A stretch of 34,373 nt of DNA from an uncultured Bacilli bacterium (GTDB lineage Bacteria; Bacillota_I; Bacilli_A; RF39; UBA660). The notes below the pieces were generated by a model. That model saw only the letters and a list, made by a program, of their open reading frames with translations, was not told the DNA's origin and searched no databases. Made by a program: the position numbers and the translations under genes. This document shows, in pieces, positions 3,013-29,349 of the stretch. Location of the stretch: assembly GCA_947631045.1 (NCBI GenBank), contig CANRJV010000012.1, positions 1-34,373 of the forward strand, in the 5' to 3' direction. Each line of letters starts with the position of its first letter. The stretch's first letter is position 1.

Positions 3013-4087
3013 ATTATATATATTTATTATTGTTTTAATCGGGTGCTTTGTTGTTTTTCTCATTTTTACTTTTAAACCTTATTCATATAATCGAAAATAT
3101 CAAGTTAATAAATATGAAATAGAGGAAATATATAATAAAGAAACAGGTTATTATACTTTTTTAATTCAAGATGACAAAACTATTTATTCATTTTTAATTA
3201 ATCATAAATATACTAAAAAAAGAGAACTTATCAATAATGTTTTAGAATATAAAGGAGAAGATGAAAAATGCCTTTTACCGGAAGGAAAAAATTTTCACTT
3301 TTATCCTTTATGTAAAAATGACGAGGGAGTATATACTTATAATTTAAGTAATTTAAAAATAGATAACTATAAATATAATAAAATAGCTAATTTAGATAAA
3401 TCATATGAAAAAATTGAACTTAATTATTTAAATGATAAAAGTTATTTAGTTTTTAATTATCGCGGTTTTTATTCTATAAATCCAAAAGAAAATAAAAATA
3501 TTAACTTATTTAATAATGATATTTATACTTTAAATTTAATCTATCAAAGTAAGGAATATGTTATTGTTCCGGATTATAATGAAACCCATTATTTTTCAAA
3601 AATTTATTTAATAAATGTTAAAAATGGTTCTTATGAAGAGATAAAATTAGAAACACCAATATCTTTTGACAGTGTCTTTTTAGGAGAATATAAAAATAAA
3701 GTTTATTTACTGGATAAAAAAGAAGAGAAAGAATATCAAATTAATTTAAGAACTAAAAAGATTGAAGAAACAGATTATCTAATATTAGAAAATAATAAAT
3801 TAGTGAAGAAAAGTTTTAAAGATATTGTGGTAAATAATTTAAACTTTTTACCAATTTCTTATCCAGAGTATAAATTACAAAATAATATTTTATATCAAGT
3901 TATTGAAGATAATTTAGTAAAAATATCGAATCTAGAAGTTAGCAAAATAATTAAAGTTGAAGATGATACCATCTATTATTTAGCTAAAGATAGTTTAATG
4001 ATGTACAATAATAAAGTAGGAGAAATTAAATTACTTAGTAGTTTTGAATGGAACTTTAATAATGATAATATTATTTATATTTTTTAA
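2987..4087 (+). CDS. membrane-anchored protein of unknown function
   Basis: 366 aa, single N-terminal TM; overlaps upstream gene by 26 bp. Confidence 0.65.
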   Translation: MESQKKKIKLYIFIIVLIGCFVVFLIFTFKPYSYNRKYQVNKYEIEEIYNKETGYYTFLIQDDKTIYSFLINHKYTKKRELINNVLEYKGEDEKCLLPEGKNFHFYPLCKNDEGVYTYNLSNLKIDNYKYNKIANLDKSYEKIELNYLNDKSYLVFNYRGFYSINPKENKNINLFNNDIYTLNLIYQSKEYVIVPDYNETHYFSKIYLINVKNGSYEEIKLETPISFDSVFLGEYKNKVYLLDKKEEKEYQINLRTKKIEETDYLILENNKLVKKSFKDIVVNNLNFLPISYPEYKLQNNILYQVIEDNLVKISNLEVSKIIKVEDDTIYYLAKDSLMMYNNKVGEIKLLSSFEWNFNNDNIIYIF

Positions 4088-4954: not shown

Positions 4955-6487
4955 ATGGTAGAAGATAAATATAATAATAAAAAGAAAACAATAATAGGAA
5001 TAATTATAGCAGGAGTATTTTTAATAGTCTTAGTTACAGGAGCAACATATGCCTTCTTTAGTATAAATGTAAGTAATGGTAGTACAAGTACAAATATAAA
5101 TGTCAATATGGGCAAATTAAATAATATTGCTATCAAAGGAACAGAAAATAATACTTTGCATATTAAAGTAAGTTCTGAAGATATGAAGTTAGCTAGTAAA
5201 GGAACAAGTTATTATGCTACAACAGATACAAGCAAAAATTACTTAAATGAAGGCGACGACCATGTAATAAATATTGCCAACTTATTAGTAGAAGGAGAAA
5301 TGACTCCCACTAATATATGTACAGCTAAATTAAAAGTCGAAATGGATGGCGAGTTAAAAGATGCTTTACAAGATGGTGATACCTTACTTCATATAGAAGG
5401 TGGAAGAAGTAAACATGATATAGATTTGAGTTTATTATTAGATGAATATCCCATAGAGTTTGTTGTAGATAAAAGCGAAAGCAAACCAATAAATGCCTCT
5501 TTAAAACTTATAAATAGAGATGCTGATCAAACATACATTGCCGGAAAGACCTTAAGTGTAACATTAACAATAGAAGGCTTAACATGCAAAGTGCAAAATC
5601 CAGATGATGCAGTAGAAAAGATATTAGCCAATTCAGAGCAATATTTAGAAAAAGCCGAAGAAGTATCATTGAGAGGAGATGTCCTTCGAAGATTTCAAGG
5701 TCAAGTGGAAAAAGATGAACAAGGTAATATAATAAATGATATAAATAATTATATCTGTTTTGAAACAACAGAAAAGGAAAAATGTTTAAAAGATACAGAT
5801 AAATATTTATATAGAATAATTGGAATAGATACATTAAATAATGAATTAAAAATAATAAAAAGAGAGGCATTAAATGATTTACAACAATGGGGCACACCAT
5901 ATCAAACATGGGAAACAAGCGATTTACAAAAAAAATTAAATGACACATTATATTTAAGTGAAGTTTCAAAAAGTTGGGCAGATTTAATACAGCTATATGA
6001 TTGGGAATATGGGGATATACCATATGGTGATAATTTAGGAACAGGAATTTTTGATGCAAATAATAATATAAACGGGCAACAAATGTATAAAAATGAACAA
6101 GCAATTTGGAAAACTAATAATAAAGTGAGTGCCAAAATAGGCTTGATTTATTTAAGTGATTATTGGTTATCGGGAGGAGATAATTTAAAATGTGTAAATA
6201 GTAATTTATGTATTGAATGTAAAAAAAGTTGGATGTACTTAAGTAATAATGATACAAAAGATTTAAGCACAACCAAACAAGACCCGCCTAGTTTTCGTGA
6301 ATGGACCGCTAGTACTCAAGACTCATACTGGTCTGCATGGGATATCTATACTATTGGCTCACCAGCCGGGTGTGGGCGTGTGGATTGTTTTGATTCTGTA
6401 CGTCCGGTCTTCTATCTTCAATCTGGTTTAAAATTATTGGGAGAAGGAAAATTATCTGATCCATATATAATCCAAGGTGTTGAATAA
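4955..6487 (+). CDS. exported surface protein: SipW-type signal/TasA-like N-terminal domain plus C-terminal variable display-like domain
   Basis: 510 aa; N-term KKKTIIGIIIAGVFLIVLVTGATYAFFS; C-terminal core RGDVLRRFQG..NDINNYICF..YLYRIIG shared with 25927-27342; ends SVRPVFYLQSGLKLLGEGKLSDPYII. Confidence 0.75.
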   Translation: MVEDKYNNKKKTIIGIIIAGVFLIVLVTGATYAFFSINVSNGSTSTNINVNMGKLNNIAIKGTENNTLHIKVSSEDMKLASKGTSYYATTDTSKNYLNEGDDHVINIANLLVEGEMTPTNICTAKLKVEMDGELKDALQDGDTLLHIEGGRSKHDIDLSLLLDEYPIEFVVDKSESKPINASLKLINRDADQTYIAGKTLSVTLTIEGLTCKVQNPDDAVEKILANSEQYLEKAEEVSLRGDVLRRFQGQVEKDEQGNIINDINNYICFETTEKEKCLKDTDKYLYRIIGIDTLNNELKIIKREALNDLQQWGTPYQTWETSDLQKKLNDTLYLSEVSKSWADLIQLYDWEYGDIPYGDNLGTGIFDANNNINGQQMYKNEQAIWKTNNKVSAKIGLIYLSDYWLSGGDNLKCVNSNLCIECKKSWMYLSNNDTKDLSTTKQDPPSFREWTASTQDSYWSAWDIYTIGSPAGCGRVDCFDSVRPVFYLQSGLKLLGEGKLSDPYIIQGVE

Positions 6488-20878: not shown

Positions 20879-23296
20879 ATGCTAGAAATAAAAAAGATAA
20901 CTAAAATTTATAAATTAGATAACTTTGAACAAAAAGCCTTAGATAATGTGAGTATTAAATTTAGAGAGAGTGAATTTGTTTCAATTTTAGGGCCATCTGG
21001 TTCTGGTAAAACCACTCTTTTAAACATTATTGGTGGTCTTGATAAATACACCAGTGGGGATTTAATTATTAATGGTATCTCCACTAAAAAATATAAAGAC
21101 CATGATTGGGATATTTATCGGAATCATAAAGTTGGTTTTGTTTTTCAAAGTTATAATTTAATTGCCCATCAAAGTGTTCTTTCTAATGTGGAATTGGCTT
21201 TAACTTTAAGTGGGGTTTCTAAAAAAGAAAGAAGAGAAAGAGCCATTAAAGCTTTGGAAGATGTAGGCTTAAAAAATCATATTTATAAAAAACCTAATCA
21301 ACTATCAGGCGGTCAAATGCAAAGAGTGGCTATTGCTAGAGCATTAGTAAATAATCCCTCTATTGTCTTAGCGGATGAACCAAGCGGGGCTTTGGATACT
21401 AAAACAAGTTTACAAATTATGGAACTTTTAAAAGAAATTTCTAAAGATAAACTAGTTATAATGGTAACTCATAATCCGGATTTAGCGAGAGATTATTCCA
21501 CTAGAATAATAAGTATAAAAGATGGGATAATTGAAAGTGATAGTAATGCTTATCATGGCGAAGAGAATGAAATAGTTGAAAAACCTGATAAGAAAAAATC
21601 TAATATGTCATTTAGAACAGCTATATCTTTAAGTTTAAATAACTTAATGACTAAAAAGGGAAGAACTATTTTAACGGCTTTTGCAGGTTCCATTGGAATA
21701 ATTGGTATCTCACTTATTATGTCTTTATCCAATGGTTTTGAAAGATATATTTCCAAGGTTCAAGAAGATACTTTAACAAGTTATCCTTTATCTATTGAAA
21801 AACAAACGGTAGATTTTTCTTCGATGATGAGTAGTATGGCCGAAGATAATAGTAAAAGTCATGATGATAAAAATAAAGTTTATTCAAATAACATTATGAC
21901 TGATATGATGAGTATGGTCACAGAACAAGTTACGACAAATAACTTGGAAGATTTTAAAAAATATATTGATGGTAATAAGGATATTCAAGATAAAGTTAAT
22001 GATATTAAATATAGTTATAATTTTGATTTAACTATTTATGATCCTGATACCTCTAAAGGAATTAATAAAATTAATCCATCCAATATCTTAGATGAAATGG
22101 GTATGGGTAATATGATGATGATGAGTAACTATGAAATTTGGATGGAACTTACTGATAATAAAGAGTTACTTAAGAGTCAATATGATGTTATTGCAGGAAG
22201 ATTACCAGAAAATTATAACGAAATTGTTTTAATTGTAGATAGTAATAATTCGATTAACGATTATGCTTTATATTCTTTAGGTTTAAAAGATAAAGAAGAA
22301 TTATATAATTTATTTCAAAGCACTTTAAAAGGTGAAAAGTATGAGACAGAAGATCGCGATTATACTTTTGATGAATTATTAGATTTAGAATATAAGTTAG
22401 TTTATAATTCATCTTTGTACGAAAAAGAAAATGGCCATTGGGTTAATAAAGAAAACGATTTAAGTTATATGAAAAATCTTTTAGGTAAATCTGATACTTT
22501 AAAAGTAGTGGGAATTATAAGACCTAATGAAGAAGCCGCTATTTCAGAAAGTACGGGAGGCATTGGTTATACTAGTGATTTAACTAAACATATAATTGAC
22601 CATAATAATGATTCAAAAATAGCAAAAGAACAATTAAAAAATAAAGATATTAATGTTTTAACGGGAGAAACATTCAAAGAAATTGAATCTTATGATAATA
22701 ACTTAGCTTTACTTGGAGTTGTTGATTTAGAAAGTCCTAGCAGAATTGATATTTATCCTAAAAGTTTTGATGATAAAGAAGCCATTGAAAATATTATTAG
22801 TGATTATAATAATGATAAAGATGATGCTGATAAAATTCAATATACCGATTATGTTGGTCTTCTTATGACTAGTGTAACTACCATTGTTGATATTATTAGT
22901 TATGTCTTAATTGCTTTTGTAAGTATATCTTTAATTGTATCTTCTATTATGATTGGTATTATTACTTATATTAGTGTCTTAGAAAGAACTAAGGAAATTG
23001 GTATTTTAAGAAGTATCGGGGCTAGTAAGAAAGATATTGCCAGAGTATTTAATGCGGAAACCTTTATTATTGGTTTAATTTCTGGTTTATTAGGTATTGG
23101 TGTTACTTTCTTATTAAGTATTCCAATTAATATGGTCTTAAAGAATTTAGTAAATATTTCTAATATTTGTAAGTTACCGATTGTGGGTAGTATAACTCTT
23201 GTCATCATTAGTGTTGTCTTAACTGTTATAAGTGGTTTAATACCATCTAAGGTAGCAAGTAAAAAAGACCCAGTTATTGCTTTAAGAACTGAATAA
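20879..23296 (+). CDS. ABC transporter, fused ATP-binding and FtsX/MacB-like permease
   Basis: GPSGSGKTTLLNIIGGLD Walker A, LSGGQMQRVAIARAL signature, VLADEPSGALD Walker B; C-terminal FtsX-type TM region ERTKEIGILRSIGASKKDI. Confidence 0.93.
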   Translation: MLEIKKITKIYKLDNFEQKALDNVSIKFRESEFVSILGPSGSGKTTLLNIIGGLDKYTSGDLIINGISTKKYKDHDWDIYRNHKVGFVFQSYNLIAHQSVLSNVELALTLSGVSKKERRERAIKALEDVGLKNHIYKKPNQLSGGQMQRVAIARALVNNPSIVLADEPSGALDTKTSLQIMELLKEISKDKLVIMVTHNPDLARDYSTRIISIKDGIIESDSNAYHGEENEIVEKPDKKKSNMSFRTAISLSLNNLMTKKGRTILTAFAGSIGIIGISLIMSLSNGFERYISKVQEDTLTSYPLSIEKQTVDFSSMMSSMAEDNSKSHDDKNKVYSNNIMTDMMSMVTEQVTTNNLEDFKKYIDGNKDIQDKVNDIKYSYNFDLTIYDPDTSKGINKINPSNILDEMGMGNMMMMSNYEIWMELTDNKELLKSQYDVIAGRLPENYNEIVLIVDSNNSINDYALYSLGLKDKEELYNLFQSTLKGEKYETEDRDYTFDELLDLEYKLVYNSSLYEKENGHWVNKENDLSYMKNLLGKSDTLKVVGIIRPNEEAAISESTGGIGYTSDLTKHIIDHNNDSKIAKEQLKNKDINVLTGETFKEIESYDNNLALLGVVDLESPSRIDIYPKSFDDKEAIENIISDYNNDKDDADKIQYTDYVGLLMTSVTTIVDIISYVLIAFVSISLIVSSIMIGIITYISVLERTKEIGILRSIGASKKDIARVFNAETFIIGLISGLLGIGVTFLLSIPINMVLKNLVNISNICKLPIVGSITLVIISVVLTVISGLIPSKVASKKDPVIALRTE

Positions 23297-23302
23297 TATA
23301 TA

Positions 23303-23426
23303 AAAAATGCACAATAATTTGAAAATATTGTGCATTTTTGCTTTTTGAAACACCATTTTGCACAATGATTGTGCATTTTTGCATTTTTTTGCGCATTTTT
23401 GCACAATTATTTAGAAATATTGTGCA
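23303..23426. repeat. three TGCACAAT/ATTGTGCA palindromes downstream of fic
   Basis: 23308-23334 and 23400-23426 have 8-11-8 geometry; 23359-23375 is TGCACAATGATTGTGCA. Confidence 0.85.
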
Positions 23427-23438
23427 TTTTTTAAAAAA

Positions 23439-24527
23439 TTAGATATTTTTGCCAACAAAAACATTATAAATTTCATTATATCGATAACTTAATTTGGCGT
23501 AATTAGAGTCTTTAATTAAAATGCCGAGCTTTTCTAATTTATCAATTAGTGATGAAACGGTATTTCGAGAAACTCCTGACTCTTTTACAATTTCTTTTTT
23601 TGTAAATACTATTTGATGCATTATACTTGGCATAATTCTATAAACAGCATTACTATTTAATGATTTTATTAATTCCATGTCCTTTTCATAAATTTTTTGA
23701 ATTCTATTTATTTTAGTGATATTACTATTGCATTGTTCGATAATACATTGAAGAAAAAACTTAATAAAACCTAATAAATTACCATTTCGGCTTTCGTTTA
23801 ATAATTTATAATAGCTTGGCTTGTATAGTTCAATTACTTCTGAAAGAAATAATATAGGTTCATCATTAGTAAGATGCGCTAATTGAATAGGTATAAGAGC
23901 TCTTCCAAGTCTTCCATTACCATCTCTATAAGCATGGATAGTTTCAAATTGAAAATGAGAAATAGCCATATTTATAAATATGGGATCTATATAAGCATCA
24001 TTCATATAGTCAAAAAGATTGTTCAAAAGAGTAGGGATATCTTCTGGTGTAGGAGGAATAAAAGTGGCTTCATTTATTGAAGCACCTTTTGGGCCAATCC
24101 AATTTTGAATATTTCTAATTTTTCCTGGTTCTTTATTATTACCTCCTACACTATTAAGTAATATTTTATGAATACTATTTAAGAAACGAATATCAATTTT
24201 TTTCTTATCATTTAAATAATCTTTGGAATATTCAATAACTTTTTTTAAATTTTGAATTTCATTAGTGTCATCATTTTTAGGCATATATTTTAAATAATAC
24301 ATATCATCTTGGGATATTTGGGTTCCCTCTATTTGGGTTGATTTTAAACTTTCATTTAAAATGATGGAATTCAAAAAAAATCGTGAATCAAATTTGCTAT
24401 TTCTTAAATTAGACTTATATTCCCCATATCTTTCATTAGCTTCCGCAATTAATGATAAAAGTTCTTTGTCAATTGTATAGCTAATTGGCAAGGGATTTGC
24501 TTTATATGGTTCCATATTTATCACCAA
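23439..24527 (-). CDS. Fic family protein with inhibitory helix and C-terminal winged HTH
   Basis: active-site HAYRDGNGRLGR; (S/T)xxxE(G/N)-type STQIEG; C-term FTKKEIVKESGVSRNTVSSLIDKLEKLGIL wHTH. Confidence 0.92.
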   Translation of the reverse strand: MVINMEPYKANPLPISYTIDKELLSLIAEANERYGEYKSNLRNSKFDSRFFLNSIILNESLKSTQIEGTQISQDDMYYLKYMPKNDDTNEIQNLKKVIEYSKDYLNDKKKIDIRFLNSIHKILLNSVGGNNKEPGKIRNIQNWIGPKGASINEATFIPPTPEDIPTLLNNLFDYMNDAYIDPIFINMAISHFQFETIHAYRDGNGRLGRALIPIQLAHLTNDEPILFLSEVIELYKPSYYKLLNESRNGNLLGFIKFFLQCIIEQCNSNITKINRIQKIYEKDMELIKSLNSNAVYRIMPSIMHQIVFTKKEIVKESGVSRNTVSSLIDKLEKLGILIKDSNYAKLSYRYNEIYNVFVGKNI

Positions 24528-24561
24528 CTAAATCCTAACATAATTATATGAAAATTTCAAC

Positions 24562-24645
24562 AAAAATGCACAATATTTTAAAATTATTGTGCATTTTTGT
24601 TGTATAAAATATACATTTTGCTCAATCATTTAGAAATATTGTGCA
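24562..24645. repeat. two TGC(A/T)CAAT/ATTGTGCA palindromes upstream of fic
   Basis: 24567-24593 and 24619-24645, both 8-11-8 geometry. Confidence 0.8.
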
Positions 24646-24649
24646 TTTT

Positions 24650-25105
24650 CTAATTATTTCTTTTATGAGGTTTTCTTTCATCAGTTAAATATAATAAATA
24701 ATCTATTGGTACACCATAATATATAGCCAATTTTTTTAAGATTTTGGTGGGGGTATCAGAATAGCCAGTTTCATAAGTGGAATAGGTTGGCCTACTAATA
24801 TTTAATATTTGCGCAACTTCAATTTGTAGTAAATCTAAATCGTTTCTTATTTCATTTAATCTGTTCATATTATTTGTTACATTAACTATTTTTGAAGTAG
24901 AATATTTTTCTTTTATATTTGTTAAATTAAGAAGATAATCAACAGAAACATTAAAATAGCAAGCAATCCTTTTTAAAGTAACAGACGGAATATCAGTAAT
25001 TTCATTTTCATATTGTGAATAGCCATTTTGACTCATTTTTAAAATTCTTGCCATATCTTTTTGTAATAAATTATTTTCTTTTCTAACTTCTTTTAATTTA
25101 TTCAT
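24650..25105 (-). CDS. tandem (double) XRE HTH regulator
   Basis: 151 aa with two consecutive HTH domains (KEVRKENNLLQKDMARILKMSQNGYSQYE and NEIRNDLDLLQIEVAQILNISRPTYSTYE); C-term LTDERKPHKR like 4616-4840. Confidence 0.85.
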   Translation of the reverse strand: MNKLKEVRKENNLLQKDMARILKMSQNGYSQYENEITDIPSVTLKRIACYFNVSVDYLLNLTNIKEKYSTSKIVNVTNNMNRLNEIRNDLDLLQIEVAQILNISRPTYSTYETGYSDTPTKILKKLAIYYGVPIDYLLYLTDERKPHKRNN

Positions 25106-25926: not shown

Positions 25927-27342
25927 ATGAAGAAGAAGATAATAATCGGAATATTAATAATAATAGAGATAGGGTTAATAATGGTAAATTATAATACTAC
26001 CTTAAGTAATAAAGAGATAGATAAGATAGAAGCTAAAGAAGAAACGAAAGAGATAAAAGGAAACAACACTTTAGCGATAATGGTTAAGAGCAAAGATGGC
26101 AAAGAATACACTCCATCAGAGACAAACACCTGGCCAGAATCACCATACAAATATGCAGGAGCCTTATGTATAGGGAATGATGGAAGAGATATAGAAGAGA
26201 GTGAAGTAATAAGTTTTGATAACGCAAGTCATACAGCAACCATAACTACGAAAGACACCATCTATTGTTATTTATACTTTGCTGAGGGAGAAGATGCAGT
26301 AACTAGAATACTATCCAAAAGTGCAAGTGGTTTAGAAGCCGAGGAAGATGTAGGAGCAAGAGGCGATGTTCTTCGAAGGTTTCAAGGGACAGTAACAAAT
26401 AATGGAGACGGAACAATAGATAATGATATAAACAATTACATCTGTTTTGGAACAAGTATTACCGAAGAATGTGTAAAAAACACCGACAGATACATGTACC
26501 GAATAATCGGCTATGCCACCGCAGATGATGAAACAACTAACACCAAAAAAGGTCAACTTAAACTTATCAAAAAAGAAGCCTTAGAAGAAGCCATGCAATG
26601 GCATTACAATTCTAATGATAATATAAATTGGTTTCAAAGTGATTTATATAATAGAATAACAACAAAAGAATATTTAACAAATAAATACTATGTTCCAAGT
26701 GGATGGGAAAATAAAATAGCCGAACATATATGGTGGACAGGTAATATGTCTTTTGCAGCAACTGGAGCAAAACAAGTTGGTTCAGAAGTATTTAAAATAG
26801 AAAATGGACAAACTACAACCGAATATAATGTGTTTTTAGGTGAAGTTGATAAAACACTAATTAAGCCGGAAGGAGCATTAATGCAAAAAGTTAATGATGT
26901 CACAACAGGCCCATATAAAGATAAGGATATTTATTATAAAATAATAAGTAATCAAAAATGGACTGAAAAGCAAATGACTAAAGTTGGGTTAATGAATATA
27001 AGCGATTATTATTTGTCAGTTAGTAATGATGTAATTTGTAGTGAAATTAACGAAATACGAGGAATATGTAAAGCCGGATGGCTGCATCTTAGTAACAATG
27101 ATGATGATCGTTTAAGCACAACTAAGTTATTACCGCCATGGCCTAATGAAACTATGATGGCGGACTATGGTTTTGAAGTTTATTATGGTCTGTACATGTA
27201 TTTTTTCTTATTTTCTGAAGGTAATATTGATACAACACGCTATGATAGTAGTGCTGCTATTCGCCCTGTTATATATACTACTGAAAATATAACTTTGAAT
27301 GGCTCTGGAACCATAACAGACCCATATATAATAGTTAGTTAG
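25927..27342 (+). CDS. exported surface protein with variable C-terminal display-like domain
   Basis: 471 aa; N-terminal TM; RGDVLRRFQGTV..NDINNYICFGT..YMYRIIG; C-term LSTTKLLPP...SAAIRPVIYTTENITLNGSGTITDPYII; paralogous C-terminus to 4955-6487. Confidence 0.75.
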   Translation: MKKKIIIGILIIIEIGLIMVNYNTTLSNKEIDKIEAKEETKEIKGNNTLAIMVKSKDGKEYTPSETNTWPESPYKYAGALCIGNDGRDIEESEVISFDNASHTATITTKDTIYCYLYFAEGEDAVTRILSKSASGLEAEEDVGARGDVLRRFQGTVTNNGDGTIDNDINNYICFGTSITEECVKNTDRYMYRIIGYATADDETTNTKKGQLKLIKKEALEEAMQWHYNSNDNINWFQSDLYNRITTKEYLTNKYYVPSGWENKIAEHIWWTGNMSFAATGAKQVGSEVFKIENGQTTTEYNVFLGEVDKTLIKPEGALMQKVNDVTTGPYKDKDIYYKIISNQKWTEKQMTKVGLMNISDYYLSVSNDVICSEINEIRGICKAGWLHLSNNDDDRLSTTKLLPPWPNETMMADYGFEVYYGLYMYFFLFSEGNIDTTRYDSSAAIRPVIYTTENITLNGSGTITDPYIIVS

Positions 27343-27364: not shown

Positions 27365-27401
27365 ATGACTTTCGACATAATAAAAGAAAGTTCGACAAAT
27401 G

Positions 27402-27431
27402 TTGTCAAAACTTCCTATGGACTTTTAATAT
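27402..27431 (+). promoter_or_regulatory. candidate promoter for toxin-like mRNA
   Basis: TTGTCA-N18-TAATAT. Confidence 0.45.
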
Positions 27432-27523
27432 ATAGGTGTGCTTTAATAGTAAGTCGAGACGAGGAGTCTTGCCTACTTTCAGGGGGTTTTGGGAAACCGG
27501 AATCATGTGAAAGGGGTGGTTTT

Positions 27524-27631
27524 GTGAAATTAAATATCTTCGGATTTTTAAAAGTAATAATTTTTTTGTCTAGTCAAGTGACAAAACAAAAAAAGACTAT
27601 CCTGGTTCGGATTGAGTTCCGAATAGGATAG
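27524..27631 (+). CDS. candidate type I toxin-like peptide (35 aa, GTG start)
   Basis: SD AAAGGGGTGG then GTG; (M)KLNIFGFLKVIIFLSSQVTKQKKTILVRIEFRIG: short hydrophobic stretch plus basic tail; nested in frame of the listed 88-aa ORF. Confidence 0.5.
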   Translation: MKLNIFGFLKVIIFLSSQVTKQKKTILVRIEFRIG

Positions 27632-27667
27632 CATCCACTTAGGCAACGATTTCTCGTCTCCTAAAGT
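27587..27667 (-). ncRNA. candidate antisense small RNA (antitoxin-like), ~80 nt
   Basis: minus strand: TTGTTA-N17-TATAAT promoter (27697-27669), 5' hairpin CACTTTAGG..ACGA-GAAA-TCGT..CCTAAGTG, then terminator CTATCCTATTCGGA-ACTCAA-TCCGAACCAGGATAG + TCTTTTTTT. Confidence 0.65.
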
Positions 27668-28560: not shown

Positions 28561-29349
28561 ATGAGTCGTATGGATAATACAGAAGAAACACGTTTAAATT
28601 TTAAAGGTTTGTTTAAATATATTTCCACCGTAGTAAGCTGGACTGTTTTTATTTTACTTTGTTTAATCGGAATTTTATTAATTTATTATTTTATTTCAGT
28701 TCGTCTTTATGCTACTCATGGTGAAAAATTTGAGCCTAAATTTTCCGTGTATACGGTTGTTTCCGAAAGTATGGAACCTACTATCGATAAATATGATGTT
28801 ATCGTTAATACTAAAATAAATAGTATTGATGATGTTAAAGTAAATGATGTTATTACCTATATTTCTACTTGGCAAGTTAATTATGGTATGACAGTTACTC
28901 ACCGGGTTGTGGGAACTAAAACTTTAGATGATGGTTCTAAATGTTTAATAACCAGAGGAGATAATAATACCTCTGAAGACCCAATCTGTATTAAGAAAAG
29001 CAGTGTTATTGGTGTTGTAAAAGCCGTTATTCCTTCATTAGGAAGAATTCAATTTTTCTTATCAAGTAGTATCGGCTGGTTATTAGTAGTTTTAATTCCA
29101 GCTCTATACATTATTGTTAAAGATATTTTAAAAATATTTAATTTATCGAAAGATATTAAAGAAGAAAATAAAGAAAAAGAAAACAAAGGAAAACCAGAAT
29201 TAGAAAAAGAAGAAAATTCTTTGGAAACCGAAAAAATCAAAGAAGAAATTGAGAGCCGTGCTAAAAAAATATTACGGGAAAGTAAAAACGAAAATAAATA
29301 TTTAAAAGAAGCTTATGAGGAGTTGAAAAAAGTAAAGAATCACAAGTAA
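28561..29349 (+). CDS. signal peptidase I, SipW/ER-type
   Basis: VVSESMEPTIDKYDVIV catalytic-Ser motif, TVTHRVVG and TRGDNN motifs; charged C-terminal extension. Confidence 0.85.
   Translation: MSRMDNTEETRLNFKGLFKYISTVVSWTVFILLCLIGILLIYYFISVRLYATHGEKFEPKFSVYTVVSESMEPTIDKYDVIVNTKINSIDDVKVNDVITYISTWQVNYGMTVTHRVVGTKTLDDGSKCLITRGDNNTSEDPICIKKSSVIGVVKAVIPSLGRIQFFLSSSIGWLLVVLIPALYIIVKDILKIFNLSKDIKEENKEKENKGKPELEKEENSLETEKIKEEIESRAKKILRESKNENKYLKEAYEELKKVKNHK

Follow-up and report, generated by a model that had tools for sequence, protein, structure and literature searches.

The window and its exported protein family

The window, by which we mean the whole stretch of 34,373 nucleotides that was analysed, comes from an uncultured Bacilli bacterium and contains two genes of one family of exported proteins, a DGR target family. 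The first, win1 (4955-6487, forward strand), is an ORF for a protein of 510 aa with a TM/export segment near the N-terminus that includes ..GATYAFFS... The second, win2 (25927-27342, forward strand), was recognized as a member by its ORF and by paralogy, and is only one of many win1 paralogues in this genome. Relatives are present in 38 of 38 congeneric genomes, and searches of Pfam and NCBIfam gave zero domain matches for the family. The N-terminal export segment of these proteins is followed by a conserved middle (LRRFQG, NYICF, YRIIG), then by SDY and EW[TL]M.R; after these, about 29-41 codons are variable, and RPV.Y and a C-terminal G.G...DP[YF] motif close the plan.

Composition of the C-terminal segment of win1

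The first-pass annotation had described 6290-6425, near the end of win1, as adenine-depleted and compositionally foreign. A recount on the sequence gave exactly the same numbers for 6361-6420, namely 7/60 A and 31/60 G+C. The odd segment is real and only its extent has to be corrected, since the natural unit is slightly narrower and runs from the EWT motif to the VRP motif, that is, over the 31 codons of 6308-6400 (forward strand). This low-A, high-GC stretch takes the position homologous to that of the variable regions (VRs) which in other family members match a template repeat (TR), and together with the composition this marks it as a putative orphan, or relic, VR. The 108 nt from 6302 contain 19 A (17.6%) and 55 G+C, while the remaining win1 gene is 43.5% A. 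Among the 9022 in-frame 108-nt coding stretches of the contig (A: mean 41.9, sd 7.3; G+C: mean 29.8, sd 6.1) there is no other with equally low A plus equally high G+C; taken singly, A is as low in 10 of them and G+C as high in 5. The compositional edges of the segment are sharp and the remainder of the gene has the normal composition of the host.

At its 3' end the segment is followed by an IMH-like anchor (6401-6419, forward strand, by sequence reading), composed of CGTCCG and GTCTTCTATCTTC. These last 13 nt (6407-6419) are the exact complement of GAAGATAGAAGAC, which is present in the tails of all four TR RNAs of the same genome. For the C-terminal domain of win1 AlphaFold2 gave a model with a mean pLDDT of 67, poor in the VR part (about 36-60), and for the suggested C-type-lectin fold around the VR a PDB fold search with this low-confidence model returned no significant match and profiles returned none.

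A DGR on another contig of the same genome

That the window itself holds no reverse transcriptase (RT) or template repeat was stated correctly in the first-pass annotation; both occur on other contigs of the same genome, a draft of 1.31 Mb which is 93% complete in 81 contigs. Contig C21 carries one target gene, four TRs, and genes for a MutS-domain protein (MutS_I), Avd and an RT. The RT (380 aa; DGR motif IGNMTSQ, YMDD; RVT_1 E 1.4e-18; nearest NCBIfam models below cut-off) was assigned to the DGR type by the motif xGxxxSQ, where group II intron RTs have a QG motif, in accordance with the use of the SQ motif as a criterion for DGR-type RTs (PMC3521204). Avd is a 126-aa ORF situated before the RT, which is its expected place, and matches NF033474 DivGenRetAVD (E 1e-9) and Pfam bAvd (2e-6), both under the curated cut-offs. 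An RT on contig C76 was considered as a possible second DGR and ruled out, because its PQGGPLSP motif is of the group II intron RT type.

In known DGRs copying of the template RNA is error-prone opposite adenines, and the resulting cDNA replaces the VR beside a 3' anchor. The variable codons of the C21 TRs are nearly all AAC or AAT. VRs matching one of the TRs were found in 12 of the 24 family members of this genome that were examined, and in these 12 template A was changed at 208 of 437 positions and the other bases at 69 of 825 (odds ratio 10, p=1e-55). In the shuffle control 0 of 200 reached the score of any of the 12. Targets that share a template diverge at codon positions 1 and 2 but scarcely at 3; C7a and C7b, for example, show differences of 0.53, 0.33 and 0.00 at the three positions. 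As 11 of the 12 matched VRs are situated on contigs other than C21, the DGR appears to act in trans on genes of the family and, judging from sequence comparison, one DGR would seem to rewrite about a dozen sister genes of win1.

Search for a template of the win1 segment

A search of the full genome for an RT and a template, as had been suggested, was successful in so far as C21 provides a DGR-type RT and TRs, none of which matches 6308-6400. A DNA search of the same genome did not find a TR for the win1 VR, and neither did a covariance model built on the conserved tail of the TR RNAs, which gave no TRs in this genome besides the four on C21. An adenine-tolerant pattern of the win1 VR that permitted 3 mismatches returned, from 38 genomes, only win1 itself, and adenine-tolerant alignment of the VR with 33 TRs gave a score of 25.5, compared with a codon-shuffle mean of 23.1 and equalled by 42 of 200 shuffles. 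The best hit of the tail model within the window (17 bits, E 0.05) falls in an ABC-transporter ORF (20879-23296) and was rejected as a TR remnant.

The sister species G016, whose RT is 87% identical to the RT of C21, possesses SRNDSSNAWNVNSDGNVNNNSFSNTRSVRP-type TRs, three in number, which the win1 relatives of G016 match with adenine-specific changes (in the best case A changed 18/35 and non-A 2/77). This indicates that win1 comes from a target subfamily. When win1 is compared with C10b and with two relatives from G016, the amino-acid identity of the VR is lower than that of both flanks, and compared with C40 the VR is only slightly less alike (0.43) than the upstream flank (0.49). Differences between the win1 VR and its G016 relatives or paralogues occur at each of the three codon positions, and for that reason no direct TR/VR pair can be demonstrated. 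The earlier description of the region as DGR-like is therefore sustained at the level of the family, in which C-termini appear to be rewritten with adenine-specific TR/VR differences and the subfamily relatives of win1 match TRs in the sister species. It finds no support for a current feeding of the win1 segment, since all TR searches were empty and its silent sites are off the template pattern.

The other origin proposed in the first-pass annotation was a recombining cassette, which would be swapped among paralogues or strains without reverse transcription and would account for the sharp compositional edges. Neither the genome nor the genus yielded another copy of the segment that could act as donor, the similarity to sequences of the genome and of the 37 congeners being limited to the short RP/anchor motif. 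In addition, paralogues carry a low-A segment at the equal place, where a TR explains its composition. We consider such a cassette highly improbable.

Silent sites and the 3' anchor

The silent sites are more telling. Third-position A amounts to 0.4% in TRs (957 codons), 3% in matched VRs (12/395), 19% in the win1 VR (6/31) and 46% in the win1 flank (64/140). The win1 value, a rough estimate from only 31 codons, is different from that of the matched VRs (p=0.0009) as well as from that of the flank (p=0.008). GC3 is 0.58 in matched VRs, 0.32 in the win1 VR and 0.18 in the win1 flank. Such silent sites would be expected in a VR which a template had once supplied and which had drifted afterwards.

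The most probable explanation, and one we hold with good but not full confidence, is that 6308-6400 was the VR of a DGR target and has been orphaned, its composition now returning to that of the host. No TR of a matching type was found in its own genome, and the past rewriting of win1 is suggested by composition and kinship; at present the VR is probably no longer rewritten. In this lineage one DGR, comprising the RT, Avd, the MutS-domain protein and template-RNA genes, would rewrite the C-termini of the family in trans. The template RNA would be miscopied opposite adenines and the cDNA would substitute the VR adjoining the conserved 3' anchor. The last template of win1 would have been lost or replaced, leaving a segment which retains the low-adenine product of the earlier rewriting, together with the anchor, and whose silent sites would be drifting toward the A-rich composition of the host.

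The lack of a template could also be attributed to the assembly, if the win1 VR were active and its cognate TR existed outside the assembled sequence. The 81 contigs of the draft amount to a completeness of 93%, and several G016 contigs end in or beside target genes. Two orphans of the same genome, C27 (L058) and C16 (L060), have third-position A of 0.09 and 0.03 and no TR in the assembly, and their VRs (before RPVLYL) differ from one another by 0.41, 0.28 and 0.06 at codon positions 1, 2 and 3. Such a fresh DGR signature indicates that templates can be absent from a draft or recently lost. The 13-nt anchor is also intact in win1, while win2 and several other orphans do not have it intact; the anchor is, however, present in genomes without a detected RT as well and is therefore no proof of activity. 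What speaks against an active VR is the third-position A of win1 (6/31), far above that of templates (0.4%) and of matched VRs (3%; p=0.0009), given that 33 of 33 template cores examined are from RNAs with practically zero third-position A. An active VR with an unassembled template is in our opinion rather unlikely.

It is also conceivable that the segment was never a product of a DGR. In that case win1 would be a paralogue without a VR, and the composition would come from protein constraints or from descent from another lineage. VR-less paralogues are often retained in DGR target families (PMC3521204), win1 is without TR kin, and the member L206 of G033, a genome without a detected RT, has a similarly low A (0.20). 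Most members in genomes where neither RT nor TR was detected, however, have A of 0.26-0.37 in the VR position, the shift of silent third positions (6/31 vs 64/140) is unexplained by protein constraint, and the rest of the win1 gene has normal host composition, all of which makes this explanation improbable.

The window has another orphan VR in win2 (27157-27261, forward strand), with A of 0.25, third-position A of 0.14 and the anchor changed to GTTATATATACT. In this genome and in G016 VRs read GTCTTCTATC and most TRs GCCTTCTATAAC, the VR form being the exact complement of the TR tail. This suggested that the anchor is written by an RNA primer, which was rejected as a general rule: the tails of G003, G009 and G014 are altered (complement GTCCTCTATC or GTCCTTTATC) and the sampled VRs still read GTCTTCTATC. 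The anchor of C27 and C16, GTCCTTTATC, is the complement of the G014 TR tails, and these two orphans may therefore belong to a second template type resembling that of G014.

Dispersed template-RNA genes

A conserved RNA stretch of about 130 nt follows each TR. In this tail AAGATAG pairs with the 3' end of the TR, and two hairpins come next, the last one preceding a T run. Compensatory changes were observed in 19 of 34 base pairs, and the tail had no match in Rfam. With the covariance model of the tail TR genes were detected in 18 of 38 genomes, a few hits being partial or weak; there are 13 in G008 (8 contigs), 12 in G032, 11 in G037, 7 in G027, 6 each in G003 and G023, and 4 in the genome of the window. 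All 13 TR cores of G008 differ, and VRs on its contigs C16 and C11 have their best match in TRs on its contig C6. In G037, which is 94% complete, the 11 tail hits are situated on several contigs and a homologous DGR RT was not detected. All these genomes are drafts and separate contigs are not a proof of distance; several TRs sit tens of kb within contigs without an RT. A PD-(D/E)XK transposase-family gene is located 3' of a TR in C21 and, by sequence reading, in contig C90 of G016.

These results raise the possibility, to which we give about an even chance, that the DGR is organized as a dispersed template library, with a single RT/Avd and many unlinked template-RNA genes. The templates would differ in their cores and have in common the structured tail with a terminator-like hairpin at the end. 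As templates are gained or lost, family members would enter the rewritten state or pass into a frozen archive, and win1 would be among those archived. A limited search of open-licence papers did not reveal a dispersed multi-template library with one RT.

Comparison with known systems

Remote targets and action in trans are already known (PMC8144416, PMC10907252, PMC7517822, PMC8867640), and a VR whose fitting TR is missing from the strain itself is known as well (PMC4891356). The DGR of Treponema denticola (PMC4891356) resembles the present one in having an exported target family, in a remote target VR which fits the TR of other strains better than its own, and in targets which remain in strains without RT and TR. 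It has few targets and one TR per isolate, while here a genome has dozens of members, and its TRs number from several to 13; and, unlike in T. denticola, win1 has no TR in any genome examined here. In the remote multi-target DGRs of Cyanobacteria and Thiohalocapsa (PMC7517822, PMC8867640, PMC10907252) RT and TR likewise act on targets elsewhere, and members both with and without a TR match are found. There the targets are dispersed, while here the templates seem to be dispersed too, as an RNA gene family with a shared structured tail.

The experimental model, the DGR of Bordetella phage BPP-1 (PMC12875486), also has a TR 3' end beside a structured spacer RNA, which in BPP-1 recruits RT-Avd, and shares Avd and the IMH-like anchor at the VR 3' end, priming and homing being putative in our case. 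Unlike BPP-1, the system described here is cellular and has many targets and templates, which appear to act in trans, and an additional MutS-domain protein.

Targets of DGRs are usually found by inspecting the neighbourhood of the RT for a template and a target. In the present case the templates appear as a dispersed family of RNA genes, and for half of the family members examined in one genome the draft contains no template. With the covariance model of the tail templates can be found without a nearby RT. If the proposed interpretation is true, silent-site composition would be a rough clock of the last rewriting of a target, and these gut bacteria would hold both changing and archived repertoires of surface proteins.

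Other features of the window

A SipW-type signal peptidase I is encoded at 28561-29349 (forward strand) and is a plausible processing enzyme of the exported family. Its match to TIGR02228 (E 5.6e-24) passes the cut-off, and that to the SipW model (2e-21) stays under the cut-off of that model. The ORF at 23439-24527 looks like a member of the Fic family by a HxFxxxHxxxDGNGR-like motif (sequence reading), and repeats TGCACAAT..ATTGTGCA are found on both of its sides, at 23290-23440 and 24549-24661.

Downstream of win2 there is a structured element of 285 nt (27380-27665). A 321-nt region folds with -105 kcal/mol, compared with -70 for shuffles (z -7), and an Rfam search of the element matched nothing. 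Near full-length copies are present in the same genome (C27, C4, C7, C11, C2) and in G023 and G016, and the copies on C7, C11 and C12 are situated directly behind VR-family genes. The element is possibly MITE-like or a non-coding RNA. A near-palindromic sequence in it, TTTTGACAACnTTTGTCGAA (27390-27410, reverse strand), also occurs in spacers between TR RNA and the PD-(D/E)XK transposase-family gene, with copies in L053 near 3253-3276 and 5283-5306, and short matches to the TTTTGACAACnTTTGTCGAA end of the element were found in most congeneric genomes.
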